NCBI RefSeq assembly: GCF_025628885.1
Contig: NZ_JAOTIF010000001.1
Span: 1-64,000, forward strand
Origin: Paraflavisolibacter caeni
Lineage (GTDB): Bacteria > Bacteroidota > Bacteroidia > Chitinophagales > Chitinophagaceae
DNA length: 64,000 nt
Direction: 5' to 3'
Position 1 is the stretch's first letter, and each line of letters begins with the position of its first letter. Shown piece after piece: positions 21,001-50,831 of the stretch. The position numbers and the translations under genes are program-made. The notes under the pieces are model-generated. The model saw only the letters and a list, made by a program, of their open reading frames with translations. It was not told where the DNA came from and did no database searches.

Positions 21001-22553
21001 ATGATGCTGATAATGATGGACTGATTAATATTTATGATGCCACAGCAATATCCAACCTAGATACAGATGGTGATGGTATCAAGAATTTCCTGGACCTGGA
21101 TAGTGATAATGACGGTATACCTGATGTAGTTGAAGCTGGTGGCACAGATGCAAACAATGATGGTAAGCTGGATGCTACGGCTATTGCAGGTTGGGATTCG
21201 AATGGTGATGGTTTGGCAAATGCGGTGACTGGTTCAAGCAATGCTTTGATTATTACAGGTGCTGATGGTAACAATGATGGTAAGCCAGATAGCTATCCCA
21301 AAGCCAACCTTGATGGCAAAGGTTTACCAAATCCTTACGACCTTGATTCCGATGATGATGGTATCGTGGATGCAAGGGAAGCTAATGTTACAGACTCTGA
21401 TAGTAATGGTATAGTTGATGGAGTTGCTTATGGTGGTACTGATGCTAATGGCTGGAGTAATCTTGTTGATGGTACTTCGGGGGGGACGGCTTTGAACATT
21501 CCTAATACTGATGGGGTAGGAGGTGCCAACTATCTGGATATTGATTCGGATAATGATGGAATTTCGGATAATGTGGAAGGGCAGGCTACAGCAAGCTATC
21601 AATTACCCACAGGATCAGATAGTGATGGCGATGGCATAGATAACCAGTATGATAACTTTGTTGGTTATGGGGGCTTAGGTATTGTGCCTGTAAACACTGA
21701 TGGTACTGATAATCCTGATTATACAGATTTGAACTCAGACAATGATGTTGACCTAGATATTGTTGAAGGCAATGACTTTAACGGTAATGGAAAGGCTGAT
21801 GACAATGTCACCCTTTCAGGTATTGATACAGATGGTGATGGGTTGGACGATATTTTTGAAAGCGCAGTCAATAATGGTCCAATTGTAACTATAGCAGGCT
21901 TTGGGGGTGCTGGGGGCAAATCTCCAGCGCAAAAAACGCTTTCTACTAGTACTGAACGTGACTGGCGTAATTCACTATTCGCATTATCGACCTATTCAGT
22001 TTTACCAGTTCACTTTGTATCCATTTCAGCAACCAAAAACAGCCATGGAGTACAAGTGGTATGGACGGTTTCGGATGAGCAAAATGTGAAAGTCTACGAA
22101 GTTGAAAAGAGCATAAACGGAAGCCGCTATACTAAAATCGGAGAAGTTGCATTTAAAACAACTAATGATGCGATTAAAAAGTACCAATTCCTTGATGCTT
22201 CACCAGTGGGAAATACAGCCTACTATCGCATACGCCAGGTGGATCATGATAGCAAGTTCATGTTTAGTAGCGTTGTTTCCATAAGTGCTACTGAGACTGG
22301 CAGCAAGCTTAGTGTTCATCCCAATCCTGTTTACAGTGAAGCTTCTATTGTAATTGGAGTGAAAGAGGATCAGAAGACCATGTATGTGTTAAGTGATATG
22401 CAGGGTAAAATCCTGATCAGGAACAAGATAGAGTTGCTAAAGGGGCAGAATGTGATCCCAGCGGATTCCTTCAGGCGACTCCTTGCAGGAACTTATGTCC
22501 TTATGGTTCAAGCTGACGGGGGGGTACTGCAGACTAAGTTTATAAAACAATAA
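18075..22553 (+). CDS. large secreted adhesin-like protein with Ca-binding repeats and T9SS sorting domain
   Basis: A 1492-residue protein. Signal peptide to about residue 28 (LVSIITQAQ). An N-terminal globular region follows (about 30-310). From about 315 to 860 are Ig-like repeats, several with a PIIT...GTTIRLY...GGTW-type pattern. From about 863 to 1265 is a long run of thrombospondin type 3-like acidic repeats (DxDGDGI, DLDSDNDGIPD, DIDSDNDGISD), expected to bind calcium. The last 80-90 residues, with VHPNPVYSEASIVI and GTYVLMVQADG, form a type A T9SS C-terminal domain, so export to the cell surface by the Por system is expected. An adhesin or surface-layer role is inference. It has its own terminator. 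Confidence 0.85.
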   Translation: MKTAAKFRCLRNLICSLFLLVSIITQAQTPGLIVRPAGGPYNSVLDKNQDGFTSPTNSGFVTNDVGTGYSEIPYKVVPPFKLEPTSDLMRGPNTLFSDLVRISNDESGMYIFNDGTNMLFRLRLGSIISGSKGYSILIDADGLFGPSGPYADPNYKPATTGINGNPGFELEVVLETNFRVAIYDVDGKDDAGTTAYKTFPINSNSQISIAYSAVSGDPDYLYDFYVPLADLQYAGGTKSVTATTPIRVSATTVMSPQASIGGPKSDIYGYDGNDYMKAWESIINGQPAFTPNDVLSTGSGITSTVCTAAPTLNSSIGTGTVTVTGTWTQADATRPSSAIITLYKNGTSVGTTTVSTGGTWSISGVTSASGDVFYAKAQASGESSCLQSNSVTALGCLPSNMSSVSSITLTCASNRGFDGTAPANAVVRVYTVTSSGYTLFADQTTTTYKIDRPGASTRWTYDNVNTNSSNPCSGGQADVTVGEYAVTIQEPGKCESDYYYFYNDNNGCPSTTATPIITQATLYTGNTTISGTATSGATVRLFINGQLKSTTTATGGNYSFTTSSLASGDIVDVYAHSSGSCVSAKATRTVVCFTAPPIITTNSTGNLVNGTLISGTSTEATGTTIRLYNSANTLLATVTVQSGGTWTTSVSAATGTSYYATAQNGTCGVSTASATVSALAATTICPTITGSYNDASTSVSGSLSASFTGTVRLYQDGTLAGSASVTNATSWTITPTANTLYPGGVLTTTTQSSTGAEKTDCSGSVNISCSAPNAPSVSPTTVTVGNANGKTTFNISGSQSGVLYTLEDMSGVDKSTSVFGNSGTISVTSYAFLTPGTYNLRISALKLSGSNCGTSTTAITLTVSDNDGDGIADVVDIDDDNDGILDSNETATYDATGDADGDGVLNYKDTSPGSGLPSTDANSDGVVDAYDTDKDGIINQFDLDSDNDGIPDLVEAGGFDTNGDGKVDYTGTFASNDADNDGLINIYDATAISNLDTDGDGIKNFLDLDSDNDGIPDVVEAGGTDANNDGKLDATAIAGWDSNGDGLANAVTGSSNALIITGADGNNDGKPDSYPKANLDGKGLPNPYDLDSDDDGIVDAREANVTDSDSNGIVDGVAYGGTDANGWSNLVDGTSGGTALNIPNTDGVGGANYLDIDSDNDGISDNVEGQATASYQLPTGSDSDGDGIDNQYDNFVGYGGLGIVPVNTDGTDNPDYTDLNSDNDVDLDIVEGNDFNGNGKADDNVTLSGIDTDGDGLDDIFESAVNNGPIVTIAGFGGAGGKSPAQKTLSTSTERDWRNSLFALSTYSVLPVHFVSISATKNSHGVQVVWTVSDEQNVKVYEVEKSINGSRYTKIGEVAFKTTNDAIKKYQFLDASPVGNTAYYRIRQVDHDSKFMFSSVVSISATETGSKLSVHPNPVYSEASIVIGVKEDQKTMYVLSDMQGKILIRNKIELLKGQNVIPADSFRRLLAGTYVLMVQADGGVLQTKFIKQ

Positions 22554-22571
22554 GACTAGCTATTAATATAA

Positions 22572-22622
22572 GTGCAATTCGAAACAAGTGCTATTTTCCT
22601 TGTTCTGAATTGCACCTTTTTT
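22572..22622 (+). terminator. terminator of the large adhesin gene
   Basis: GTGCAATTC (22572-22580) pairs with GAATTGCAC (22607-22615), and AACAAG inside pairs with CTTGTT. A T-run follows. Confidence 0.87.
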
Positions 22623-22716
22623 ATTGAGCGTTTTTGAAACAAAGTTCATACTACTTACTCTTCGGGACTTTTTGTATAATCAATTAGCTTTGTAGAGCTG
22701 CTATAATGCACCAAGT

Positions 22717-23610
22717 ATGGCAACCTATATACAACCTTTCTGTGAAGGAATAAACTGGATTGATGTTACCAACCCTACTACACAGGAGATGGAGCAGTTA
22801 AGTAAGGAGTATAACCTGAATCCACATATGGTAAGAGATTGCTTACAGCCAGAGCATTTGCCTAAATACGAATTTGTAGATGGCGTTCATTTTCTGATTC
22901 TTCGTTATTACGCTCATTCCTTTGATCAACCGCTGGCTACAATTCAAGACCTCACCAATAAAATTGCTATCTTTTTTACAGACCAGTTTTTAATCAGCAT
23001 CCATTTATCAGAAATTCCTTTCCTGGCGGTCCTGCGTGAGAAGTTCATTAGTAAGTGCACTTCTGAGACTGATTTGCTAACACGCATTGCATGGAATGTA
23101 CTGGAAACTTATGAAAACCCGGCTAACCGGCTTTCGGAAAAAGTAGACTTTTATGAGTCTCAGACCATGATGAAAACATCGGAAGCCAACGTGATGGACT
23201 CGCTATACACTATTAAGCGGGAAGCTTCAATTGCGCATAAAACTTTGATGCTGATGTTGGAACCACTCAATCACATACTTGTGAAACCTGGAGAGGAGGC
23301 CGCTTTACAGGATATGCGGGATCAGCACCTTAAAATGCGAACGCTATATATCCAGGTGCTTGACGATGTCAATAACCTGATGAACCTGAATATGTCTTAT
23401 TCTTCGCAGCGGACTAATGATGTCATGAAGATTCTGACCATTTTCTCTGTATTTTTTATGCCACTGACTTTTATCGCAGGTATTTATGGTATGAATTTTC
23501 ACTTCATGCCGGAACTGACCAAAAGATGGGGTTATCCCTCAGCACTCCTTTTTATGCTGATCGTGGCATTGGTATTGTACCTGTGGTTCAAACGAAAGAA
23601 GTGGTTGTAA
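22717..23610 (+). CDS. corA: CorA-family magnesium/divalent cation transporter
   Basis: A 297-residue protein with a long cytoplasmic domain and two C-terminal membrane helices. The signature YGMNF is at residues 257-261, at the end of the first helix, and the second helix runs to a basic tail (LWFKRKKWL). CorA forms pentameric Mg2+ channels. A TAGCTTTG box at 22685-22692 may be its -7 promoter element. Confidence 0.93.
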   Translation: MATYIQPFCEGINWIDVTNPTTQEMEQLSKEYNLNPHMVRDCLQPEHLPKYEFVDGVHFLILRYYAHSFDQPLATIQDLTNKIAIFFTDQFLISIHLSEIPFLAVLREKFISKCTSETDLLTRIAWNVLETYENPANRLSEKVDFYESQTMMKTSEANVMDSLYTIKREASIAHKTLMLMLEPLNHILVKPGEEAALQDMRDQHLKMRTLYIQVLDDVNNLMNLNMSYSSQRTNDVMKILTIFSVFFMPLTFIAGIYGMNFHFMPELTKRWGYPSALLFMLIVALVLYLWFKRKKWL

Positions 23611-23642
23611 TGTTTGCTGTAGACTTTTGGTTATAATAATAG

Positions 23643-23669
23643 AAGGGCATGCCTGGAAAGGCAGCCCTT
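23643..23669 (-). terminator. cassette A terminator (conserved hairpin)
   Basis: Outer stem AAGGGC/GCCCTT and inner stem TGCCT/AGGCA around a GGAA loop (plus strand view). The same layout with compensating changes follows all four cassettes. It may also stop corA transcripts coming from the other side. Confidence 0.8.
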
Positions 23670-23685
23670 GTGTTGAGTAACCAAC

Positions 23686-23697
23686 CTTAAACTATCA
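23686..23697. repeat. cassette A 3' inverted-repeat site
   Basis: CTTAAACTATCA on the plus strand; it contains the TGA stop codon of the gene (23695-23697). Exact reverse complement of the site at 25325-25336. Confidence 0.85.
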
Positions 23698-25320
23698 CTT
23701 CTTTATAACCACCTTTTCAACAATCGTTTCTGAAGAGCGGCGGTCAGTAATTTTTATGGTGTAAAATCCGCTTTGTAATCCTTCAATAGTCAGATTATTG
23801 TCCCATACTTCTTTGAATAGTTTCACTATACGTCCATTAACATCATTAACAATTATATCTTTCGGGCTGTTTGTTTCTTTGAACAGCAGGTTCACCTTTC
23901 CATCCACAGCAGGGTTAGGATAGACTTGAACGGCTGTTTTCTGATCCACACCTACAACGCTTTTTACTTCACTATAGCTGGTCTTGCCATCAAAATCTAC
24001 TTGCTGGATCTGGTATTGCGATGTGCCAACAGCTGTGTTGATTTCTTTGTATTCATAGGCGAGGCCAGTGTTGCTGTTACCGTTGTCCGCTTGAGAGAAT
24101 ACAAAGGCTATATTTTTCCATTGACCGTTTAATTTGCGTTGTACATTGAAACCCCGGTTGTTTTGCTCACTGGCTGTTTCCCACTTCAGCAGCACTTGTT
24201 CTTTTCTTTGGGGATTGCGGTAAGCGGTAAAGGATTGGAAGTGGACGGGGAGGACTACGTTCGCAGCAAGGTCAATTGTAACTTTTGATGTATTGGATTC
24301 TAAATTCGTACTTGTATTGCGAGTTTTATAAGTGAACGATACTCTTGTTACGCAATCACTTCCTCTGGTATAAGTAAAGGTTCCGTCTGAGCTAAATGCT
24401 AATGTTCCCGGGTTAGGAGTGCCTATACAAGTACCTGTGTTTGCTTCAACAGTTAAAGGGTTTGCGGGGTTTATGAGCGTAAAAGTCATTTGGCTCAATG
24501 CAGGATTTGTAAAATCATAATCAGTACCGCTGTTGGTAGCAGGCAGTTCACTTAATGAATTCATTTCAAAACCGGGGGATACATTTGATGCCCATGGTGC
24601 ATAGCCACCATAAACATTTCCTTTCATTGGATTTCCGAATGACTGCTTTGTGGAATTAAAATAATCACTGTTCGTAACAGGTGTACAAGTTCCTGAACAA
24701 GATGACTTAACAATATTGAAGTCATCAAAAACGTATTTTATTCCGTTTGATGTGCAATCACCGTTTGACGACTTAAAGTTTAGAAGTATCCTATACTGGG
24801 TAACACCATTAGGCATACTAATATTGTTGAAGGCAACAGTGTTATTAGCATTTGGATAAACTATTTGGTAACCAGGAAGGCTTGCATAAGCTTGATTGCC
24901 AGTGGGGAGGGTTGTTTCTTTATTCCATGAAGTGGGAACTATATATGCCTCAACAACTGTAGTACATTGAAAAGGTTGTACAGTACAATTACTACCAACA
25001 TCGTTGGATCTGTATACATATAGTTCGAAGTTTACCAGGAGATAAGGTTTCGATGCATCATAAGTCATAGCAGGTAAAAGAATACCCATAGGCGCATTCT
25101 TACCAACTCCTGGTGTTCCCAAGCCTTTATCTTTTATGGAGCATGCACTTGGGTTATAATACTCCTGAACCTGTGTGTTATTGGAGATAATCCATCCTGC
25201 ATTTGTAAGACTTGAATTAGTAGCTGAAGAAAAATCTTGTAAATAAACGGATTGAGCATTTAAAATGGTAGTCAAAAACAATGCTTGTACAAGGAGAATT
25301 GTAAGTAAAATTTTTTTCAT
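23695..25320 (-). CDS. T9SS-secreted surface protein, cassette A
   Basis: A 541-residue protein. Signal peptide MKKILLTILLVQALFLTTIL, cleavage likely after NAQS. The N-terminal region (about 25-220), starting VYLQDFSSATNSS, does not look like the lamin-tail domains of its three neighbours; a middle part has SDYFNSTKQSFGNP and a T-rich Ig-like stretch. From about residue 355 (VLPVHFQSFTAYRN) to the end it carries the block shared by all four cassettes, with NNRGFNVQRK, YQIQQVDFDGKTSYSEVKSV and a type A T9SS sorting domain (VYPNPAVDGKVNLLF, GFYTIKITD). The function of the cargo part is unknown. It ends with consecutive stops TGA TAG. Confidence 0.85.
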   Translation of the reverse strand: MKKILLTILLVQALFLTTILNAQSVYLQDFSSATNSSLTNAGWIISNNTQVQEYYNPSACSIKDKGLGTPGVGKNAPMGILLPAMTYDASKPYLLVNFELYVYRSNDVGSNCTVQPFQCTTVVEAYIVPTSWNKETTLPTGNQAYASLPGYQIVYPNANNTVAFNNISMPNGVTQYRILLNFKSSNGDCTSNGIKYVFDDFNIVKSSCSGTCTPVTNSDYFNSTKQSFGNPMKGNVYGGYAPWASNVSPGFEMNSLSELPATNSGTDYDFTNPALSQMTFTLINPANPLTVEANTGTCIGTPNPGTLAFSSDGTFTYTRGSDCVTRVSFTYKTRNTSTNLESNTSKVTIDLAANVVLPVHFQSFTAYRNPQRKEQVLLKWETASEQNNRGFNVQRKLNGQWKNIAFVFSQADNGNSNTGLAYEYKEINTAVGTSQYQIQQVDFDGKTSYSEVKSVVGVDQKTAVQVYPNPAVDGKVNLLFKETNSPKDIIVNDVNGRIVKLFKEVWDNNLTIEGLQSGFYTIKITDRRSSETIVEKVVIKK

Positions 25321-25324
25321 TGCA

Positions 25325-25336
25325 TGATAGTTTAAG
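25325..25336. repeat. cassette A 5' inverted-repeat site
   Basis: TGATAGTTTAAG, exactly 4 bp upstream of the ATG (in the messenger, CTTAAACTATCA occupies the ribosome-binding position). Perfect inverted partner of 23686-23697. Confidence 0.85.
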
Positions 25337-25610
25337 TTATACGATGTTAGTTTGGTCTTCAGGGGTAGGAGGACTGTTGCTTTGCTTAATGGCTTTTTGC
25401 AGGAGTGGATGGAGCGTTTTTTGGATCGTGGATATTTAAAACATAAAGCATCTTTTCCATACCAGTATGTACCAGCATAGCTTTAAAACATTCAAGTTGC
25501 CTTGAATCAAAGATGGGCCTATTGGAAAATGGATTTTGAATGGCTAAGGGTGATGTATAAGTTAGTTTGTTTATGTAGGATACGGTAGGAGTAAATACTT
25601 ATTTACGGTG

Positions 25611-25641
25611 CAAACATAGTATGTTTTTAAACTTAATGCAA
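25611..25641 (-). promoter_or_regulatory. cassette A promoter
   Basis: On the minus strand TTG, 20 bp, then TATGTTTG (25611-25618). This is close to the Bacteroidota consensus and predicts a start near 25606. Confidence 0.75.
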
Positions 25642-25795
25642 GAGCTTGTTAGAAAAAAAGATAAAAAAGTATTGAAAGGAATAAGTATTGAGTAGGCAAA
25701 AATTGGATAGTGACATTATATCATTTTGGGGATCAAGCTTTTATGTCGCTTTGATCAGAAGGGGAAATTGCCGGGAAATTTTTTTGTTGAAAAAG

Positions 25796-25822
25796 TAGGG
25801 CAAGCCTGGAAAGGCTGCCCTA
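25796..25822 (-). terminator. cassette B terminator (conserved hairpin)
   Basis: Outer stem TAGGGC/GCCCTA, inner stem AGCCT/AGGCT, loop GGAA. Compared with cassette A, both sides of the outer and inner stems have changed together. Confidence 0.8.
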
Positions 25823-25838
25823 GTTATGAGTAACCAAC

Positions 25839-25850
25839 CTTAAACTATCA
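25839..25850. repeat. cassette B 3' inverted-repeat site
   Basis: CTTAAACTATCA, including the TGA stop (25848-25850). Exact inverse of 27490-27501. Confidence 0.85.
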
Positions 25851-27485
25851 TTTCTTTATAATAACCTTTTCAATAATTGATTTAGAAGTTTGGCGATCAA
25901 TAATTCTTATGGAGTAAAATCCACTTTGCAGTCCTTCTATGAGCAGGTTATTCCCTCTTATTTCACGGAATTGCTTTACTACTTTGCCATTCAAATCGCT
26001 TACGAATACATCTTTTGCTCCTTCCTGATCACTAAACAAAAGGTTCACTTTGCCATTCAGCGCTGGGTTGGGATAGATTAATACTTCAGCCTGCTGTTCC
26101 AAACCTGCCACAGATTTGATTTCACTATAACTGGCCTTTCCATCCATGTCCACTTGTTGTATCCGGTATTGAGATGCGTCGCTAGCCGTATTCATTTCTT
26201 TATATTCATAAGTGAGTGTCTTGTTGCTATTGCCATTTTCAGATTGAGAGTATATAAAAGCTATATTTTTCCATTGGCCTGACACTTTGCGTTGTACATA
26301 GAAGCCCCGGCAGTTTTGCTCCATTGCAGTTTCCCATTTGAGTAATACTTGCTCTTTTCTTTGCTGGTTGCGAACAGCAGTAAAAGACTTGAAGCGAACC
26401 GGCAGGACTGAACAGGATAGTGAAACAACTCTGTCTAAGCAACCTAAAGCTGTTTCATATACCATCAGGTATGACTTCTGTGGGTTAGGTACGCTATATG
26501 AATAGGTGGTAGAATTGCTTCCCTGTTTTATTGTTTGGCTAGGATCAATGTGCGTATCATTTGCACCCAGAACACCAGTTACTGCATTATCCATGTATAG
26601 ATGAACAGTAACAGGAAATGCGGCAGGTTCTGAGGTGTTCAATATGCTGAATTGAACGGATGGTCCGCATGAATAAGTTTCTGTTGTTTTAATCAGTATT
26701 CCATCAGAGATCGATAAGTTAGTTGTACTCGTTCCTGGTGTGTGATCATCACCACTTGCAGTTTTTATCCAGGTACCGCAAATACCATCCTTGATCCTTG
26801 CATAGCCGTTGTCGCTACCACCTGCCTGGACTACACTTTCCGCTGATATTACATATTGCCAATTGATTGTAAAGGAGCCACATGCCGAATTTGACGTTAC
26901 GTTGAATGAAGGCAAAGTTGTGATTTCACTTGGAACAGCAAGGCCTTTATAGCCAGCTAATAAGCCATTCACATAAGTATCTTTATTGAATAGGAATACT
27001 CCGTAAACCACTCCGCTGGCAGCTTTAGTTGATAATTCAGGAAAAAGGTCATTGAAGCCTGCAGTAGGGGTGAATGGAAGCTCATATCCATTATTGGCAT
27101 TATTTAAAACATAGCCTTTTAAGGAGCCGGTACCTGCTGAAGTCGCTGGATTTATATCATTGAAGTCGTTCCATGTAAAATCTGCAGTTTTGCCTGTTTT
27201 TTGTTGCACATTAAATGTTTTGGCAGATGCACCAACAAAGAATGATTTTGCTTTAATGGTGAGCTTGGGTAAGTCTAAAACATAAATACCAAGTTTTTTA
27301 TCCTGTTCAAATAATGTTATTAAAGTATAGCAATCCAGGTCTACATCATTGGGGCTTGCATTAAACAGTTCAAAGAATTCATGCCTGTTACTTCCTGGGT
27401 TGGTATAAACTTCATTTAGAATAACCTGGCTTTTTACGAAGAGGCATGGCAGAGCCAGCAGAATAGTAAATAATACTTTTCTCAT
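25848..27485 (-). CDS. T9SS-secreted lamin-tail-domain protein, cassette B
   Basis: A 545-residue protein. Signal peptide to about residue 19 (LLALPCLFVKSQ). A lamin-tail-like domain follows: VILNEVYTNPGSNRHEFFELFN and DLDCYTLIT, the usual LTD opening, to about residue 180. A Cys-containing middle part comes next, with NGYARIKDGICGTWIKT and HTPGTS. The shared C-terminal block begins at VLPVRFKSFTAVRN (about 360) and ends with the type A sorting domain (IYPNPALNGKVNLLF, GFYSIRIID). LTDs are found in surface and DNA-associated bacterial proteins; the ligand is unknown. Confidence 0.85.
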   Translation of the reverse strand: MRKVLFTILLALPCLFVKSQVILNEVYTNPGSNRHEFFELFNASPNDVDLDCYTLITLFEQDKKLGIYVLDLPKLTIKAKSFFVGASAKTFNVQQKTGKTADFTWNDFNDINPATSAGTGSLKGYVLNNANNGYELPFTPTAGFNDLFPELSTKAASGVVYGVFLFNKDTYVNGLLAGYKGLAVPSEITTLPSFNVTSNSACGSFTINWQYVISAESVVQAGGSDNGYARIKDGICGTWIKTASGDDHTPGTSTTNLSISDGILIKTTETYSCGPSVQFSILNTSEPAAFPVTVHLYMDNAVTGVLGANDTHIDPSQTIKQGSNSTTYSYSVPNPQKSYLMVYETALGCLDRVVSLSCSVLPVRFKSFTAVRNQQRKEQVLLKWETAMEQNCRGFYVQRKVSGQWKNIAFIYSQSENGNSNKTLTYEYKEMNTASDASQYRIQQVDMDGKASYSEIKSVAGLEQQAEVLIYPNPALNGKVNLLFSDQEGAKDVFVSDLNGKVVKQFREIRGNNLLIEGLQSGFYSIRIIDRQTSKSIIEKVIIKK

Positions 27486-27489
27486 TGTG

Positions 27490-27501
27490 TGATAGTTTAA
27501 G
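27490..27501. repeat. cassette B 5' inverted-repeat site
   Basis: TGATAGTTTAAG, 4 bp upstream of the ATG. Exact inverse of 25839-25850. Confidence 0.85.
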
Positions 27502-27702
27502 TAGGGTTATAGCTTGGCCTTTCTGAATTTGGAGGTAGTTACTATATCATCGGCTTTTGTAAGATTGGATGGCAGGCTTTTAGGATGCTGGAAGAAAATG
27601 GTGTAAGAATAGGTTTAGGGTTTAGATTAATCAAGGAGTGGAATGTAACGGAGTTGGTTATTCGAAGTAGGATAATGAAGAGGATGGTGTTACTTAGTAG
27701 TT

Positions 27703-27733
27703 TAAAAGTAATAAGCTTATTTTCTTTTTGCAA
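27703..27733 (-). promoter_or_regulatory. cassette B promoter
   Basis: On the minus strand TTG, 20 bp, TACTTTTA (27703-27710). The last base differs from the TAnnTTTG consensus. The same TACTTTTA form is used before the EPS mini-gene at 35754. Confidence 0.6.
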
Positions 27734-27784
27734 GTGTTCTAAAAAAATATTTAAAAAATAATGAAGTTTTTTTACTTAAAAAGA

Positions 27785-27815
27785 AAAGGGGACAGCCTGG
27801 AAAGACATCCCCTTT
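27785..27815 (-). terminator. cassette C terminator (conserved hairpin)
   Basis: Outer stem AAAGGGGA/TCCCCTTT around an imperfect inner stem with the GGAA loop. On the minus strand a T-rich tail follows. Confidence 0.8.
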
Positions 27816-27829
27816 GCTAAGTAACCAAC

Positions 27830-27841
27830 CTTAAACTATCA
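27830..27841. repeat. cassette C 3' inverted-repeat site
   Basis: CTTAAACTATCA, directly abutting the TAG stop (27842-27844). Pairs with 29490-29501 with two mismatches. Confidence 0.8.
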
Positions 27842-29485
27842 CTATTTTATAATCACTTTTTCTACGGTTGTTTTTGCTGTAGTGCGATCAATTATTTTGA
27901 TGGTGTAAAATCCGCTCTTCAGTCCCTCTATTGTCAGATTCATATCTGCCAACTGGTGGAACTGTTTCACTGGTCTGCCGTTCACATCGCTCACAATCAC
28001 ATCTTTCAAACCGCCTTGTTCGATGAACAAAAGTTTAATCTTGCCGTCTACGGCAGGATTGGGATAAATAAGTACACTGCTCTTTTGTTCCTGACCTATA
28101 ACAGATTTAATATCACTGTAGCTGGTCTTTCCATCAAAGTCAACCTGTTGTATTTGATACTGTGTAACGGTATTGGAAACATTTGGATCCTTGTATTCAT
28201 AAGTAAGCGTGGAATTGCTGTTGCCATTTTCTGCTTGTGAGAATACAAAGGCTATGTTTTTCCATTGTCCATCTATTTTCCTTTGCACATTGAAGCCACG
28301 GTTGTTTTGTTCACTGGCTGTTTGCCATTTCAACAGCACCTGTTCTTTTTTCTGTGGGTTGCGGGCTGCGGTGAAGGATGAGAAGTGGACTGGAAGGACA
28401 GAACATTCGGATGTTAGGGATACTATTTTATCAAAACATCCTGAAGAAGATTGATAGATCAGAAATACAGGCTGTTTGCTAGGTACATTGAAAGTACTAG
28501 AAGTTGAGGCTGCTGAATTTACAGGATACGAAGCATTTAATACATCATTTTCTGCAAATACATTCGTTGTGGGATTATCATTAAACAATTGGACATTTAT
28601 CGGATAGGTAGTGGAACTTCCTGGTGTTATAGAAAAGCTTACTGTATTGCATATGTAACTTTGCGTTGTTGTAAGACTAGAAGTTGCTCCTCCAAGAGTG
28701 TTTGATTCTCCAGGTGTAAATTCACCTTTGCTTTGGGTTTTTTTCCAATTACCACACAAGCCATTACTTAATTTTGCGTAGCCTTGGCTATTCCCAGCTG
28801 CACTCTGGACTTGGAATACATCCACGTTGTTTGTTGTTATGCCAGTAAAATTTAAATTGACTGTAGTATAGGTATTAGCACAAATACTTCCTGGAGGAAT
28901 AGGTAAAGGTGTAGTAAGACTTGTAATTTTTGTTGGAACTGATAGGGAGGAATTTGCAAAAAAACCATTTACAATTGAAGTGGTACCATTGCTATTTATT
29001 TTGTATAATAATAGTGATGCATCATTTCCATTTTGAATGTTCATGAAATCTCTGAAGTTACCATTTATATTTGTAGGTCCACTCCATTGATTATTGGAAT
29101 AAGTGTACTTTGAAATATAACCACCAGAGCCAATGTCATTCCAATTAGAAAAGCTGTTTAAATCTGTTGGTGTAAAACTCTGATTAGTATTCGATTTATA
29201 TCTTACCGGATTATTTGAGCTGATCAAATAGTAAGATAGCCCCTTTATTGCAGCATTGGTTGGAAAATTATAGACATAAACGCCTTTGTCAGTCCCATTA
29301 TCAAAATAAGAAACTACAACGTAACAGTCTAAGAAAATTGTTAGTGGCGATGTATTGAAGAACTCAACATATTCGTCTTCGTTGCTGCCAGGATCAGGAA
29401 CCAATTCATTGAACCAAAGGAAACGTTGACTATTCCCAAAAAGTACTGCCAATGATAATACAATGGTGGATAAAATTTTTTTCAT
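27842..29485 (-). CDS. T9SS-secreted lamin-tail-domain protein, cassette C
   Basis: A 547-residue protein from the ATG at 29485 (MKKILSTIVLSLAVLFG, signal peptide). The frame extends upstream to 29527, but that part is the inverted-repeat leader and is rejected. The LTD-like domain has RFLWFNELVPDPGSNEDEYV and DCYVVVSYFD. The middle region with GYAKLSNGLCGNWKKT and GEFTPGES parallels cassettes B and D. The shared block starts at VLPVHFSSFTAARN and ends with IYPNPAVDGKIKLLF and GFYTIKIID, a type A sorting domain. It is closest to cassette D along its whole length. Confidence 0.85.
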   Translation of the reverse strand: MKKILSTIVLSLAVLFGNSQRFLWFNELVPDPGSNEDEYVEFFNTSPLTIFLDCYVVVSYFDNGTDKGVYVYNFPTNAAIKGLSYYLISSNNPVRYKSNTNQSFTPTDLNSFSNWNDIGSGGYISKYTYSNNQWSGPTNINGNFRDFMNIQNGNDASLLLYKINSNGTTSIVNGFFANSSLSVPTKITSLTTPLPIPPGSICANTYTTVNLNFTGITTNNVDVFQVQSAAGNSQGYAKLSNGLCGNWKKTQSKGEFTPGESNTLGGATSSLTTTQSYICNTVSFSITPGSSTTYPINVQLFNDNPTTNVFAENDVLNASYPVNSAASTSSTFNVPSKQPVFLIYQSSSGCFDKIVSLTSECSVLPVHFSSFTAARNPQKKEQVLLKWQTASEQNNRGFNVQRKIDGQWKNIAFVFSQAENGNSNSTLTYEYKDPNVSNTVTQYQIQQVDFDGKTSYSDIKSVIGQEQKSSVLIYPNPAVDGKIKLLFIEQGGLKDVIVSDVNGRPVKQFHQLADMNLTIEGLKSGFYTIKIIDRTTAKTTVEKVIIK

Positions 29486-29489
29486 CTCG

Positions 29490-29501
29490 TGATGGTTTAA
29501 A
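29490..29501. repeat. cassette C 5' inverted-repeat site
   Basis: TGATGGTTTAAA, 4 bp upstream of the ATG; differs from the A/B form at two positions. Confidence 0.75.
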
Positions 29502-29806
29502 TTGAAGAAATGTTGGTGGCGTTTCAATGGCCTTGGGGCATAGTAGTGCCTTGTGATTTAGTTTTCTCACGGAAGAAGGATGGCGTTTATGCAGTGTAGT
29601 GAGGACAGCTTAAAGAATCAAGTTGTCAATGATGTGGCTTATAACAGGTGTGGATTGGAGTGATCCTTGGTGTTTATTCCAGGTTCAGGTTGTCCAGAAT
29701 AGAGATTGGTTGTACGAGCTGAATTGATGCAGGTAAAAAGCCTGTTTTCTATGCAAGCAAGGCTGTTTTCAAAAGGGTGGAGGAAGTTTTGTTGTATTCG
29801 TTACTA

Positions 29807-29837
29807 CAAACTTAATAGGGGTTTTTTATTAATGCAA
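29807..29837 (-). promoter_or_regulatory. cassette C promoter
   Basis: On the minus strand TTG, 20 bp, TAAGTTTG (29807-29814), a full match to TAnnTTTG. The CTTGCATTAA at the -33 side is shared with cassette A. Confidence 0.75.
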
Positions 29838-29955
29838 GTTTTTACAAAGAAATCTATAATAATTCTTTTCCCTTTAATATTGGCCATTTATACCTGATAA
29901 TAAACAACGGCAGCAAAGAAACAAATTGAAAATAATCAACATGTATAATAAGAAA

Positions 29956-29985
29956 AAGGGGATTTGCCTGGAAAGGCATCCCCTT
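29956..29985 (-). terminator. cassette D terminator (conserved hairpin)
   Basis: Outer stem AAGGGGA/TCCCCTT, inner stem TGCCT/AGGCA, loop GGAA, with a T-run after it on the minus strand. Confidence 0.85.
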
Positions 29986-30001
29986 GTAAGGAGTAACCAA
30001 C

Positions 30002-30013
30002 CTTAAATTATCG
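30002..30013. repeat. cassette D 3' inverted-repeat site
   Basis: CTTAAATTATCG, abutting the TAG stop (30014-30016). The final G is matched by a C at the first base of the 5' site, a compensated change relative to cassettes A-C. Confidence 0.78.
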
Positions 30014-31663
30014 CTAGTTTATAATTACCTTTTCAACAGAAGTGACCATTGTCGAGCGGTCAATAACTTTTATGGTATAGAAGCCTCTTGGCAAACCCTC
30101 TATAGAGAGGTTATTGTCCTTTACTTGGGGGAACTGCTTTACCAGCCTGCCACTTGCATCACTTACGATTACTTGTTTTACTGCATTTTGCTCCTTGAAT
30201 AGTACGTTAACCTTTCCGTTGATGCCGGGATTGGGATAAACGACCAAACCGCCGTTTTGTTCGGTGCTCAGCACGGTTCTTACATCACTGAAGTCTGACT
30301 TGCCATCCATATCTACCTGCTGCAGCCTGTATTGTGTTGCCGTGCTAAAATTGTTGATATCAGTATACTCGTAAGATAAAGTTGTATTGCTGTTGCCATT
30401 GCCTGCCTGGGAGGTTACGAAAGCTATATTCTTCCATTCTCCCGATACTTTGCGCTGTACATTGAAGCCCCGGTTGTTTTGCTCACTGGCTGTTTCCCAT
30501 TTCAATACTACCTGTTCTTTTTTCTGCTTGCTGCGGGCTGCAGTAAAAGACCGTAAGCGGACCGGAAGCACAGAACATGTCGTTGTTAATGCCGCTACAT
30601 TACCCAAACATCCAAGAGAAGTCTGGTATACTAATAATACAGCCCGGCTGCTAATGGGGACAGTGAACGTATTGGATGCTGAGGCAGAAGATTCAACCGA
30701 CTTGGAAGTAATATATTCATCTGTTGCTTCAAAAAATCCCGTTTGGGGTTTATCATAAAACAACTGAACTGTGATTGGGTAGGTCGTTGAACCGTTAGTT
30801 GTTATTGAGAAGCTTACCGTATTGCAGGAATAGTCCTGAATTGTTGTAAGATTTGAAGTTACTGTTCCAAAGTTGTTTGATGTACCGGGAGTATGTTCAC
30901 CTTGTGAAGTCTTCTCCCAGTTTCCGCATAGTCCGTCTCTTTTTTTGGCATATCCATTTCCAGTTCCGGGAGCTTCTATTAATGAGATAATATCAATATT
31001 GTTATAAGTTATCAATTTAAAGTCGAGATTAACTGTTGATGTAAAACAATTGCCCACAGGTGTAATTGGTAAAAGAGCAAATGTTTTCAAATGATTTATC
31101 AAGGCTTCAACATCCGAACTTCGGGGATTGGCAACAAAGCCATTGACAAACGATATGGTACCATCACTGTTGATCTTAAAGAGAAACAGAGTAGCATCCA
31201 TTCCACCTGCATCAGCAATGAAGTTATTGAAGTCTGTATTCAAAGATTCACCTGCCCCCCAGTTACCATTGCTATATGTATATTTTAAAAGTGATCCTCC
31301 TGCGCCGCTACTATTCCAATTGCTGAAACTGGTTGGATCCGACGGCGTATAAGTACCACCTCTAAAATTTACGGGGCTGCCTGAACTAATCAGGTAACGT
31401 GATAAACCTTTAATTACGGCATTACTTGGAAAGTCATATATATAGACAGCCTCTTCTCTCCCGGGTAATTTGTCAAAGTATGACACAACAACATAGCAAT
31501 CTAACGCTATCGGATCCCTGGATGAATTATAGAACTCAATGTATTCATTATTGCCAGTGCCTGCATCAGGGATGAGTTCATTGAACCATAAAGAGCGGGA
31601 AGTTTGTGCTTTGCCAAAGAGCATGGCAAGGGTCAGCAAAAGAGTGGGTACAACTTTTTTCAT
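30014..31663 (-). CDS. T9SS-secreted lamin-tail-domain protein, cassette D
   Basis: A 549-residue protein. Signal peptide MKKVVPTLLLTLAMLFGKAQ. The LTD-like domain has SLWFNELIPDAGTGNNEYI and LDCYVVVSYFDK. The middle contains NGYAKKRDGLCGNWEKT and GEHTPGTSN. The shared block starts at VLPVRLRSFTAARS (about 364), with NNRGFNVQRK, and ends in VYPNPGINGKVNVLF and GFYTIKVID. It is first in the leftward array and has the best promoter match of the four. Confidence 0.85.
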   Translation of the reverse strand: MKKVVPTLLLTLAMLFGKAQTSRSLWFNELIPDAGTGNNEYIEFYNSSRDPIALDCYVVVSYFDKLPGREEAVYIYDFPSNAVIKGLSRYLISSGSPVNFRGGTYTPSDPTSFSNWNSSGAGGSLLKYTYSNGNWGAGESLNTDFNNFIADAGGMDATLFLFKINSDGTISFVNGFVANPRSSDVEALINHLKTFALLPITPVGNCFTSTVNLDFKLITYNNIDIISLIEAPGTGNGYAKKRDGLCGNWEKTSQGEHTPGTSNNFGTVTSNLTTIQDYSCNTVSFSITTNGSTTYPITVQLFYDKPQTGFFEATDEYITSKSVESSASASNTFTVPISSRAVLLVYQTSLGCLGNVAALTTTCSVLPVRLRSFTAARSKQKKEQVVLKWETASEQNNRGFNVQRKVSGEWKNIAFVTSQAGNGNSNTTLSYEYTDINNFSTATQYRLQQVDMDGKSDFSDVRTVLSTEQNGGLVVYPNPGINGKVNVLFKEQNAVKQVIVSDASGRLVKQFPQVKDNNLSIEGLPRGFYTIKVIDRSTMVTSVEKVIIN

Positions 31664-31667
31664 TCAG

Positions 31668-31679
31668 CGATAGTTTAAA
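31668..31679. repeat. cassette D 5' inverted-repeat site
   Basis: CGATAGTTTAAA, 4 bp upstream of the ATG. Extended pairing AGCGAT/ATCGCT with the 3' site is possible. Confidence 0.78.
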
Positions 31680-31967
31680 GGGTTACGGTTGGTTTCAACG
31701 GCATAGCAATGCCATTGTGAAAAAAGTTTTCGCAGAAAATGGATTGTGGAAATTCGTAGAATGAGGACTAATGGATGTGGGCTGCTTTGTTAGCCTGACC
31801 ACTTGGTTTCTTTAGGATCTTGTTGTTAAGGTTACTCAGGTTAAGTTGGTCTATATACTACAAACATAATAGGGGTTAATAACTATTCAAAGCATTTTGT
31901 AGAAAATATTTTGAATGCTTGTAAGGTATAGCAAGAAGAACGGTGAGCAATAATAAAATTGACCAAC
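31680..31967. other. cassette D leader and promoter region
   Basis: No gene. It contains a leader of about 190 nt for cassette D and its promoter at 31861-31891; nothing else stands out. Confidence 0.65.
31861..31891 (-). promoter_or_regulatory. cassette D promoter
   Basis: On the minus strand TTTG, 19 bp, TATGTTTG (31861-31868), a full match to the Bacteroidota consensus. Confidence 0.82.
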
Positions 31968-32162
31968 TTATTGATTGAGGGCTAATTTCATTTTTATGGC
32001 TTTTATTCTGGACCAAAGCATGGTTAGCGTATGAGCATCTACATTGTCACCCAGGCATTCTGCATACGCATCTTCTAATTCCCTGAGTTTAGCTTCCAGA
32101 TAAATGGTAGCATATTCGGGAATCAGTGTATTGGGAAATTGATTAATGATGGCCGTATTCAT
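31968..32162 (-). CDS. small protein of unknown function
   Basis: A 64-residue frame starting MNTAIINQFPNTLIPEYA and rich in helix-forming residues (YLEAKLRELEDAYAECLG, then TLTMLWSRIKAIKMKLAL). No family is recognised and there is no signal peptide. Coding is plausible from its composition and its fit between the cassette D promoter and the pdxA stop, 144 bp away. Confidence 0.55.
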   Translation of the reverse strand: MNTAIINQFPNTLIPEYATIYLEAKLRELEDAYAECLGDNVDAHTLTMLWSRIKAIKMKLALNQ

Positions 32163-32306
32163 AGAAAAGTGATTAATGCAAACTAAAAGGAAATCACTTT
32201 ATCTCTAGATCAATTACTCTTAAAATTGGATATATTAAGGGTTTTGCTGGATGAATAAATAAGAAATGGCCCTTCCCGCCACTGCGGCAAGGGCTAGGAG
32301 GTAAGG

Positions 32307-33401
32307 TTATTTCGCGTCAATAGAATCATCGATCTTTTCGTCCTCAACATTCTTCAGGACTTCCGCAGTAATCTTTCGCAAAGGATTCCTGTTGCGTTCT
32401 TCATACGCTTCCCTGTGTTGCAGGATGTCTATACAACCAAACAAAGCGGTCAAAAAGGATGTCGGATCTGCAACATTTTTTCCTGCAATGTCAAAGCCGG
32501 TCCCGTGGTCGGGCGATGTGCGGACAAACGGCAGGCCTGCGCTAAAGTTGACGCCCTCACCAACCGCAATGGTCTTAAAGGGGATCAGCCCCTGATCGTG
32601 ATACATAGCCAGAACTGCATCAAACTGGAGGTAACTTCTACGTGCAAAGAATGCATCTGCGCTGAAGGGCCCGAACACCAGCATATTTTGTTTAGCTTCT
32701 TTGATGGCAGGTTTAATGATTTCTTCCTCCTCATTTCCGATCAGCCCTTCGTCACCGGCATGCGGGTTCAATCCCAGCACGGCAATCTTAGGTTTGTCGA
32801 TGCCAAAGTCTTGACGCAGACTCTGATGCAGCATGTTTAGCTTAGAGCGGATTGCTTTTTTGGTTATTTGGCTGGCAACATCTTTTATTGATACATGCTC
32901 TGTCACCAGGGCAACCTTCAGATCATCGGTGTACAGCAGCATCAGCACGTCTTCACTTTCTGCAATATCTTTTAGAAATGGGGTATGCCCTGTATAATTA
33001 AATTGTTCACCCTGCACATTCTTTTTATGAATAGGCGCTGTCACTAATCCCTGGATGTGTCCTTGTTTCAAGGCTTCAGCAGCCGCTAGTAAAGAGTTTA
33101 CTGCATACTTACCGCCTGTTTCATTTAATTGGCCGGGGGTAATGGTCACTTCTTCTTCCCAGCAGTTGAATACATGAATCTGCTTGGGGCTAATGCGGGA
33201 GAAGTCTTTGATCATCTGGTAATTAAAATGAACATCCGGGACTGACTTACGGTAAAAGTTTATCAATTTATGAGAGCCGAAAATGACCGGTGTACACTGA
33301 TCAAGGAGTCGTTGGTCGGCCAGCGATTTAATGATTACTTCAACGCCAATACCGTTGATGTCGCCGCAGCTTATGCCTATGATGGGTTTGTTTGGTGTCA
33401 T
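32307..33401 (-). CDS. pdxA: 4-hydroxythreonine-4-phosphate dehydrogenase
   Basis: A 364-residue enzyme of the deoxyxylulose-dependent pyridoxal phosphate pathway, oxidising 4-phosphohydroxy-threonine. It opens with PIIGISCGDINGIGVEVIIK. Further signatures are GLVTAPIHKKNV, YTGHTPFLKD (metal His), GLNPHAGDEGLIG, YHDQGLIPFKT (metal His) and FVRTSPDHGTGFDIAGK. Length is slightly longer than in E. coli, with an extended charged C-terminus. Divergent from ksgA, a common pairing in bacteria. PdxH of the same pathway is at 61133. Confidence 0.96.
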   Translation of the reverse strand: MTPNKPIIGISCGDINGIGVEVIIKSLADQRLLDQCTPVIFGSHKLINFYRKSVPDVHFNYQMIKDFSRISPKQIHVFNCWEEEVTITPGQLNETGGKYAVNSLLAAAEALKQGHIQGLVTAPIHKKNVQGEQFNYTGHTPFLKDIAESEDVLMLLYTDDLKVALVTEHVSIKDVASQITKKAIRSKLNMLHQSLRQDFGIDKPKIAVLGLNPHAGDEGLIGNEEEEIIKPAIKEAKQNMLVFGPFSADAFFARRSYLQFDAVLAMYHDQGLIPFKTIAVGEGVNFSAGLPFVRTSPDHGTGFDIAGKNVADPTSFLTALFGCIDILQHREAYEERNRNPLRKITAEVLKNVEDEKIDDSIDAK

Positions 33402-49439: not shown

Positions 49440-50831
49440 ATGAATAAACGATTTCTGCGCCTGAAGCAGTTTTGTGTTTTTGGGTTGGACCTGATTTCAT
49501 TGAACGTACTCATCATGCTGCAGCAATTTGGGATGCTGTGGTTTGAAACGTTTTCTAATAGCCAAGAGTATACCCGTTTGAATCTGTGGCTAAATACTTC
49601 CTGGTTGGTTGTACTGATCGCGGGCAACCTATATAGTGAAAAGTATATTTCTTCATTTGAATTATTTTTCAGGCGCACCATACATACGTATTTCTTTTGG
49701 CTTGTGCTTGTACTTGTTTATTTGTTCTTTGCTCATCAATTTAAACTATCTCTGTCCTTTGTAGCATTTTTGTTGTGCAGTCAGGGAGCTATGCTTCTGG
49801 TCAACCGCTGCATTTACCTAGTTGTACGTTCCTATCTCTGCCACTATCAATATTTTACTCGTAGGGTGTTGATCCTGGGCTATAATGATACCGCTAAAAA
49901 GTTAGTTTCTTATCTGGAAGAAGAAAATGAACGTATTCAAATTCTTGGCTTTTGCGAAGAAGCAGAGCATATACAGGAGTTAACACATTATCCCATTTTG
50001 GGTCCGCTTGAAAAAGCCATGGAGTTATCAGAACAGATGAAGGTAGATGAAATCTTCTCAACCATTGCTCCGGAACATGATTTGGGAATTTACCAACTCA
50101 TGCAACAGGCTAATCAGTGCTGTATTCGATTCAAAGTAATACCCGACCTGAGTCTGTTTATGAATCATTCTTTCCATATCGATTACCTGAATGATATGCC
50201 AGTACTCTGCTTACGCAGAGAACCTTTAGATGAGGCAGGAAACCGGATCTTAAAAAGATTATTTGATATAGTTGTAAGTCTGTTTGTAGTCATATTTATT
50301 CTGCCATGGCTGGTTCCAGTTGTTGGCCTTCTCATCTGGATTGAGTCCCCTGGACCTATATTCTTTAAACAAAAGCGTACAGGCAGAAATAATAAACAAT
50401 TTCAGTGTTTGAAGTTCCGGAGTATGAAGATAAATAATGATGCTGATATGAAACAGGCAACACAAAATGATGAACGACTAACAAAAGTTGGAAGCTTTCT
50501 AAGGAGAACAAGTCTGGATGAATTTCCTCAGTTTCTCAACGTATTAATTGGAAATATGAGCGTAGTCGGTCCCAGACCTCACATGTTGAAACATACTAAT
50601 GATTATTCGAAACTCATCCAAGAATATATGGTCCGACAGTTTGTGAAACCTGGCATGACTGGCTGGGCTCAAGTAAATGGTTACCGGGGAGAAATCAAAA
50701 CATTACAGCATATGAAAAGACGTGTAAATTATGATCTCTGGTATGCTGAAAACTGGAGTATGTGGCTTGATATAAAGATTGTTTTTTTTACCATGGTCGT
50801 TATGATAAAGAGTGATCAAAATGCATGCTGA
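49440..50831 (+). CDS. undecaprenyl-phosphate sugar phosphotransferase (WcaJ-like)
   Basis: A 463-residue initiating enzyme. Four to five N-terminal membrane helices, a CoA-binding-like domain (VLILGYNDTAKKLVSYLEEENERIQILGF), then the bacterial sugar transferase domain: KRLFDIVVSLFVVIF, GPIFFKQKRTGRNNKQFQCLKFRSM, RLTKVGSFLRRTSLDEFPQFLNV and SVVGPRPHM. It transfers the first sugar phosphate to undecaprenyl phosphate. It lies at the end of the EPS set. Confidence 0.93.
   Translation: MNKRFLRLKQFCVFGLDLISLNVLIMLQQFGMLWFETFSNSQEYTRLNLWLNTSWLVVLIAGNLYSEKYISSFELFFRRTIHTYFFWLVLVLVYLFFAHQFKLSLSFVAFLLCSQGAMLLVNRCIYLVVRSYLCHYQYFTRRVLILGYNDTAKKLVSYLEEENERIQILGFCEEAEHIQELTHYPILGPLEKAMELSEQMKVDEIFSTIAPEHDLGIYQLMQQANQCCIRFKVIPDLSLFMNHSFHIDYLNDMPVLCLRREPLDEAGNRILKRLFDIVVSLFVVIFILPWLVPVVGLLIWIESPGPIFFKQKRTGRNNKQFQCLKFRSMKINNDADMKQATQNDERLTKVGSFLRRTSLDEFPQFLNVLIGNMSVVGPRPHMLKHTNDYSKLIQEYMVRQFVKPGMTGWAQVNGYRGEIKTLQHMKRRVNYDLWYAENWSMWLDIKIVFFTMVVMIKSDQNAC

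Follow-up and report, generated by a model that had tools for sequence, protein, structure and literature searches.

Co-evolving complementarity between the translation starts and stop codons of T9SS sorting-domain genes in Chitinophagaceae suggests 3′-end antisense elements

Introduction

In Staphylococcus aureus, a motif in the 3′ untranslated region (UTR) of icaR is the complement of the start region on the transcript that carries it, and the pairing prevents initiation there, the choice between cis and trans being left undecided in that study (PMC3868564). Pairing of the icaR type reduces translation and yields an RNase III substrate. In Vibrio cholerae, the transcript 3′ ends OppZ and CarZ pair with their own start regions and inhibit translation, and the OppZ effect requires release of the RNA, not long-distance pairing within the messenger RNA (mRNA) (PMC7398697). 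In Bacteroides thetaiotaomicron, FopS comprises multicopy small RNAs (sRNAs), one of them derived from a 3′ UTR, that are tied to the RRM protein RbpB (PMC11697453). Here we describe four tandem genes, A to D, for type IX secretion system (T9SS) sorting-domain proteins in a 64,000-nt stretch of the Paraflavisolibacter caeni genome (the window), in which the sequence just upstream of the start codon is complementary to the sequence at the stop codon.

As in icaR, each mRNA carries at its 3′ end a complement to its own translation start region, the arm overlapping the stop codon in genes A and B. However, icaR is a single gene whose extended 3′ UTR targets a Shine-Dalgarno sequence (PMC3868564), whereas here a Bacteroidota gene family carries a stop-codon element that co-evolves across genera and also occurs in stand-alone copies. 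The likeness to OppZ and CarZ lies in a 3′-end seed that is complementary to the start region of the same transcript and sits beside a terminator or terminator-like hairpin; the CarZ sRNA is bounded by a stop codon and a Rho-independent terminator (PMC7398697). RNase E frees both V. cholerae RNAs from operon transcripts, and OppZ depends on Hfq for its pairing (PMC7398697), whereas the present case involves single genes in arrays, mutual complementarity, a genome in which no Hfq was found and a predicted short RNA. With FopS, compared at the level of description, the elements share their multicopy occurrence in Bacteroidota, and RRM_1 matches exist in the P. caeni genome too.

Among DNA-level systems, invertible switches and shufflons have inverted repeats around a segment, as do the genes described here; unlike in those systems, no flipped copies were seen, no recombinase was present in the neighbours scanned, and the arms are imperfect and changing. 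No description of the start/stop arrangement in Bacteroidota was found among the titles and abstract starts that searches of open-licence literature listed. An earlier reading of the window from sequence alone (the sequence-only reading) had gone further and knew of no described system with this layout, which is too strong a claim given that icaR (PMC3868564) and OppZ/CarZ (PMC7398697) pair a 3′ UTR with a start.

Complementary arms at the start and stop codons of four tandem genes

The window belongs to a 7.0-Mb Chitinophagaceae genome, and the four genes lie in tandem on its minus strand between corA and pdxA. As the sequence-only reading had stated, and as can be read directly from the sequence, each gene has CTTAAACTATCR or a near variant exactly 4 nt before its ATG and the inverse complement on or directly after its stop codon:

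23695..25320, minus strand: gene A, T9SS type A sorting-domain protein, 541 aa (open reading frame, ORF; PF18962 1e-9; TIGR04183 8.8e-10)
25325..25336, minus strand: 5′ arm of A, CTTAAACTATCA, ending 4 nt before the ATG
23686..23697, minus strand: 3′ arm of A, TGATAGTTTAAG, the stop codon being its first 3 bases
25848..27485, minus strand: gene B, T9SS sorting-domain protein, 545 aa (ORF; PF18962, TIGR04183)
27490..27501, minus strand: 5′ arm of B, CTTAAACTATCA, ending 4 nt before the ATG
25839..25850, minus strand: 3′ arm of B, TGATAGTTTAAG, the stop codon being its first 3 bases
27842..29485, minus strand: gene C, T9SS sorting-domain protein, 547 aa (ORF; PF18962, TIGR04183)
29490..29501, minus strand: 5′ arm of C, TTTAAACCATCA, ending 4 nt before the ATG
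27830..27841, minus strand: 3′ arm of C, TGATAGTTTAAG, directly preceded by the TAG stop
30014..31663, minus strand: gene D, T9SS sorting-domain protein, 549 aa (ORF; PF18962, TIGR04183)
31668..31679, minus strand: 5′ arm of D, TTTAAACTATCG, ending 4 nt before the ATG
30002..30013, minus strand: 3′ arm of D, CGATAATTTAAG, directly preceded by the TAG stop

The arms of A and of B are perfect inverted repeats over all 12 bp, in agreement with the earlier description. For D, the compensated outer change that had been reported is there as a matched A-T to G-C replacement, with the qualification that the arms also hold one C·A mismatch and one G·U pair; the arms of C likewise contain one C·A mismatch and one G·U.

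Start/stop complementarity was measured as an ungapped Watson-Crick score between U (−18 to +4 about the ATG) and D (−9 to +18 about the stop codon). The score is 12 for A and for B, 11 for D and 10 for C, which places A, B, D and C at ranks 1, 2, 4 and 5 of 364 ORFs in 464 kb of the same genome, up to three possible ATGs being considered per ORF. The motif alone is unremarkable: with up to two mismatches it occurs 14 times in the window against 9.9 expected. Exact copies number 6 in the whole 7.0-Mb genome, and the array holds 5 of them. Use of AAACTATC as a genome-wide start signal was considered and rejected, with 66 sites near an ATG against 70 for the reversed pattern. As a separate observation, the sole other ORF of the 364 with a score of at least 10 lies at 49440-50831 (plus strand) of the window and scores 11; it is a predicted ORF with an assumed start.

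Two motif classes with co-evolving ends

For the wider survey, 394 family genomes were searched with the C-terminal domain. The sample consisted of 60 regions, mostly the top matches among those listed, and was enlarged by 18 regions around further matches and one larger region of G114; L252, which repeats L083, and L204, which repeats part of L269, were dropped from the statistics on 113 family genes. A simple signal-peptide criterion set the start codons of family genes, and it may have misplaced some of them.

Two motif classes share the same layout, and in both the two ends co-evolve across genera. Class I (AAACTATCR/YGATAGTTT) comprises 8 genes of the genus of P. caeni and of Paracnuella, all 8 pairing at −10 kcal/mol or below. 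Outside the window it is represented by two tandem genes in G024 (L078) and one gene each in Paracnuella aquatica (L082) and G005 (L032), with AAACTATCG before the ATG and CGATAGTTT across the stop codon. The outer base pair is G-C in these four members and in D, and A-T in A, B and C. Because B lies outside A, C and D in the protein tree (95/88), this pattern implies that both ends changed in step at least twice, unless gene conversion between paralogues exchanged them. G004 has the 3′ element on a contig that ends inside the gene, and G008 shows a variant pairing with bulges that was kept outside the class I count.

The conserved 3′ element lies at the corresponding place in all four window genes:

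23678..23696, minus strand: conserved 3′ element of A, GATAGTTTAAGGTTGGTTA, with 0-1 changes in G019, G024, G001 and G004
25831-25849: conserved 3′ element of B
27822-27840: conserved 3′ element of C
29994-30012: conserved 3′ element of D, with one change

A search for this exact element at up to one mismatch gave sites in 15 of the 394 family genomes, a single one-mismatch site in 12 of the 15. It found nothing convincing beyond the genus itself, and reversed-pattern controls were similar in number.

Class II comprises at least 25 genes of other Chitinophagaceae genera that have a different 3′ element at the same place. Directly after the stop codon stand GCTTCAAGGTTTT, GCTCAAGGTTT, GCTCAGGGTTTT and variants, and directly before the ATG most genes have AAAACCTTGAAGC or a variant, giving the pair AAAACCTTGAAGC/GCTTCAAGGTTTT. 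Genes were assigned to the class by a text pattern that considers the 3′ element alone and was written after the first pairs had been seen; L229_4464 and L248_3021, accidental matches of this pattern, were dropped, and L193_225, L215_299, L254_144 and L192_4879 were left out since their 5′ ends are contig-cut or misplaced. Pairing reaches −10 kcal/mol or below in 22 of the 25 genes and a score of at least 9 in 16. Both ends have changed together in L197_2091 (CTTGTA/TACAAG, as against CTTGAAG/CTCAAG in its neighbour) and in L199 (CCTGAG/CTCAGG), and in L201 pairing is kept through a G·U. In several class II genes the start codon itself lies inside the pairing. The class II genes in L191, L192, L196, L197 and L211 include several that are in tandem with paralogues, like the window genes. 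Some family genes outside both classes, in L267, L245 and L233, also have start/stop complementarity at differing positions (CTCTAAAAA/TTTTTAGAG in L267).

This co-variation across genera, together with a second motif pair in the same layout, supports the earlier proposal that the ribosome-binding region pairs with the 3′ end. The proposal was to fail if the two ends drifted independently in relatives; the opposite is seen in the two classes, while most other family members are without the pairing.

Enrichment of the pairing and preference for cognate ends

A score of at least 9 is reached by 28 of the 113 family genes, as against 3 of 282 neighbour genes and 4.3% of random within-family pairs; at a score of at least 10 the counts are 17 of 113 and 0 of 282. 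The 28 genes comprise 8 of class I, 16 of class II and 4 of neither. Controls in other orientations give scores of 9 or more in 1 (direct), 0 (mirror) and 1 (plain complement) of the 113 genes. In the tight register, duplexes of −10 kcal/mol or below were found for 25 of 98 genes of the family, compared with 8 of 282 neighbours and 2.6% of the random pairs used as controls; in the wide register, −12 kcal/mol or below was found for 42 of 99 family genes and 59 of 289 neighbours. The wide-register duplexes of Chitinophaga-type genes, striking by eye, were not retained as a candidate, a tight-register score of at least 9 being reached by 4 of the 80 genes outside both classes.

It is very improbable that these pairings are chance complementarity multiplied by gene duplication. 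The window genes do form one clade, and kinship within the family means fewer events than genes; yet the identical layout recurs with a different sequence in other genera, and neither the neighbour genes nor the wrong-orientation controls show comparable frequencies.

Pairing is also stronger with the cognate partner. Mean cognate duplex energies are −15.4 for class I and −14.1 for class II, against −6.1 for class I 5′ ends with class II 3′ ends and −8.1 for class II 5′ ends with class I 3′ ends, the cross-class values still including the two dropped genes (class II n = 27). In partner permutations, cognate pairs exceed swapped pairs within class I (p 0.006) and within class II (p 0.008), in tests that treat related family members without regard to phylogeny; with both classes together, 0 of 50,000 permutations were as good, kinship again being ignored. 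For 32 pairs from the same locus, swapped ends gave −12.3 against −13.2 for cognate ends. Since ends swapped within one locus lose little of their pairing, siblings may be able to control one another.

Two explanations that do not invoke base pairing between RNA ends were weighed against these data. A DNA- or RNA-binding protein might recognize one site at both ends, in opposite orientations; the arms are short and the class II 3′ element is, by eye, more constant than the 5′ arm, which speaks for such a site. This seems improbable to us given that the motif changes between the classes while complementarity persists, that bulges and G·U pairs are present, and that direct and mirror relations are absent. 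DNA inversion or cassette exchange, by which reading frames would be flipped or swapped, had been put forward by the sequence-only reading, and each reading frame is indeed exactly bracketed by inverted repeats. The evidence nonetheless leaves this idea hardly credible: among the assemblies, none of the 113 family genes has a 3′-element context of either class pattern within 60 nt before its ATG, the arms of one gene often differ in length and sequence through bulges and G·U pairs, and no recombinase was found among the four neighbouring proteins to which the scan was limited.

Folding of whole transcripts and pairing within one molecule

A rival explanation keeps the pairing strictly in cis: the 3′ end would fold onto its own start region, looping the mRNA and blocking or timing translation, as in the icaR and hok models. 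The predicted folds vary with leader length, of which putative promoters give an estimate. The Bacteroidota promoter consensus used was TTG-N19/20-TAnnTTTG, and the following are matches to this consensus only:

25611..25641, minus strand: putative promoter of A, TTG-N20-TATGTTTG
27704-27733, minus strand: putative promoter of B, weaker match
29807-29837, minus strand: putative promoter of C
31861-31890, minus strand: putative promoter of D

The matches lie 197-321 nt before the ATG in A, C and D (weaker in B), which would imply leaders of about 200-320 nt for these three genes. Across both classes, 8 of 33 genes have a promoter match, against a background of 2.8% in mononucleotide-shuffled sequence.

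When whole mRNAs are folded with a 45-nt leader, the minimum-energy structure has at least 9 end-to-end pairs in 5 of the 8 class I genes and in 14 of the 23 class II genes folded, a set without the two class II genes longer than 650 aa; by comparison, 4 of 120 own-genome controls have at least 8 such pairs. These folds, and the advantage of cognate over swapped ends, are what pairing in cis would produce. With the full inferred leader (~200-320 nt), however, none of the four window genes keeps the end-to-end helix in its minimum-energy fold, the expected number of end-to-end pairs falling to 0.2 in A, 0 in B, 0 in C and 3.8 in D. Leaders of 100 or 150 nt keep the helix in A and D and mostly lose it in B and C (expected pairs at 150 nt: A 13.0, B 0, C 0.03, D 16.7). 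An exclusively cis arrangement would also have difficulty accounting for 3′ elements that stand alone, and we consider it rather unlikely.

Stand-alone 3′ elements

In each window gene the 3′ element is followed by a terminator-like hairpin, recognized from sequence and folding:

23643..23669, minus strand: terminator-like hairpin after A
25796-25822, minus strand: terminator-like hairpin after B
27784-27815, minus strand: terminator-like hairpin after C
29953-29985, minus strand: terminator-like hairpin after D

Five loci have a 3′ element and hairpin with no family reading frame in front: G024 (L078), G019 (L079), G001 (L029), G344 (L192) and G317 (L197). A contig of the genus-group genome G001 is identical to a contig of a Flavisolibacter metagenome-assembled genome (L029 and L084, JAGIAB010000097.1). 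These stand-alone elements favour action in trans. A few codons resembling the family C-terminus remain at the elements of G024, G019, G344 and G317. At about 11650-12080 of L078 (G024, minus strand), a promoter match is followed by a leader resembling, by eye, those of both siblings and then by the 3′ element and hairpin; judged from this layout, the locus looks like one where the gene body was lost and the RNA kept.

G001 and G019 share a 28-nt core without any difference (28/28), as do G344 and G317. In the 60 nt to its left, ungapped comparison gives 19 matches for the first pair and 23 for the second (37 of 68 and 35 of 74 columns with gaps), and in the 42 bases to its right 18 and 35.

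The elements of G344 and G317 are 13-nt antisense sequences to sibling leaders and outperform the siblings' own 3′ ends in three of four cases: −20.1, −20.0 and −19.2 with the three leaders, against −15.4, −15.3 and −10.5 for the own ends. Those three pairings exceed all 360 background leaders, among nine leader tests in total. With its two siblings the G024 element reaches −18.0 and −20.2, close to the −19.2 and −20.2 of their own ends. In G019 the element pairs with a neighbour gene at −16.6, within the best 2.5% of the background, and this neighbour is without a 3′ arm of its own (−5.0).

Proposed mechanism and its significance

The reading that we regard as probable, though with real reservations, is that an antisense element at the 3′ end binds the translation start both of the mRNA that carries it and of sibling mRNAs and blocks initiation. 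We infer that RNA is the pairing molecule, that repression is the effect, that transcripts are monocistronic and that pairing occurs mainly between molecules. Each gene would yield a monocistronic mRNA with the antisense element at or just behind the stop codon, ahead of the terminator-like hairpin. The element would most likely be released as a short 3′-end RNA, or else be supplied by stand-alone copies, and would pair with the bases immediately ahead of the start codon in its own gene and in siblings, so that initiation is blocked; the duplex may trigger decay as well. The predicted outcome is negative feedback combined with cross-talk among the paralogues of an array. Bacteroidota are described as lacking Shine-Dalgarno sequences, and the initiation of translation in Flavobacterium johnsoniae is governed by mRNA structure and by individual bases around the ATG (PMC6847099). 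Given such a structure-dependent, Shine-Dalgarno-less start, a duplex that covers −16 to −4 or the ATG would be expected to hinder initiation.

Several results weigh against this antisense reading. A score of 9 is missed by 85 of the 113 family genes, so the feature is far from universal, and genes outside both classes rarely attain it (the 4 of 80 given above). Three class II genes pair weakly (L191_6301, −7.5; L191_4393, −5.8; L259_3307, −4.9). Among mismatches in segments scoring at least 6, G·U (11) is not favoured over A·C (13), with 40 of other kinds, and pairing of RNA rather than DNA is therefore unproven by this test. Some stand-alone elements perform poorly: that of G317 is weaker than the own 3′ end for one sibling (−9.4 against −12.1), that of G001 reaches −13.4, within the best 10% of background leaders, and pairing of the G019 element with a second gene is at background level. 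In the 8 genomes searched for it, the class I arm showed no broader set of targets: 29 sites compare with 18 for the reversed pattern and 7 of the 29 are known arms or the reverse of known 3′ elements; the idea of a wide class I regulon was dropped on these counts. No match to Hfq (PF17209) was found in the P. caeni genome, as compared with 5 positives among 14 control genomes. The same genome has nine RRM_1 matches.

More tentatively, the pattern may reflect a lineage-wide, Hfq-less antisense network of co-evolving stop-codon elements and cross-regulating arrays, with stand-alone sRNAs silencing siblings after loss of their reading frame; we hold this broader proposal to be possible rather than probable. 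A second, outer pairing of the conserved GGTTGGTTA with the leader at −17 to −45 is suggestive only (uncorrected Fisher p 0.01).

In the literature found, control of the start region by the 3′ end consists of single cases, namely icaR, OppZ and CarZ, with hok known through the icaR paper. Here the relation is a feature that co-evolves across several genera, in two sequence classes or more, and occurs in a Shine-Dalgarno-less phylum and in a genome without detected Hfq. It would offer a natural set of compensatory changes for studying bacterial regulation from the 3′ end and a hint at the birth of sRNA genes from mRNA tails. If the proposed mechanism is true, the path from mRNA tail to sRNA gene through loss of the reading frame would be visible in these genomes, and a layer of control over the dosage or choice of surface proteins would be added to type IX secretion.

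Gene neighbourhood and further features

The array is flanked by two genes:

22717-23610: corA
32307-33401: pdxA

The four neighbouring proteins scanned were CorA, PdxA, a ribosomal RNA adenine dimethylase and a large protein with sub-threshold matches only. An Rfam search of 22500-33000 gave two matches, with E-values of 0.75 and 0.84, below the gathering score and away from the elements. Gene C was taken to start at the ATG at 29485, the listed ORF beginning at a TTG further upstream. In the protein tree, A to D form one clade (97/90), within which the grouping of A with C is weak (96/29). A lamin-tail-like (LTD) N-terminal part, below the LTD cut-off, is present in B, C and D and absent from A. 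The C-terminal part of A is 53-60% identical to those of B, C and D, and divergence is greater towards the N-terminus.

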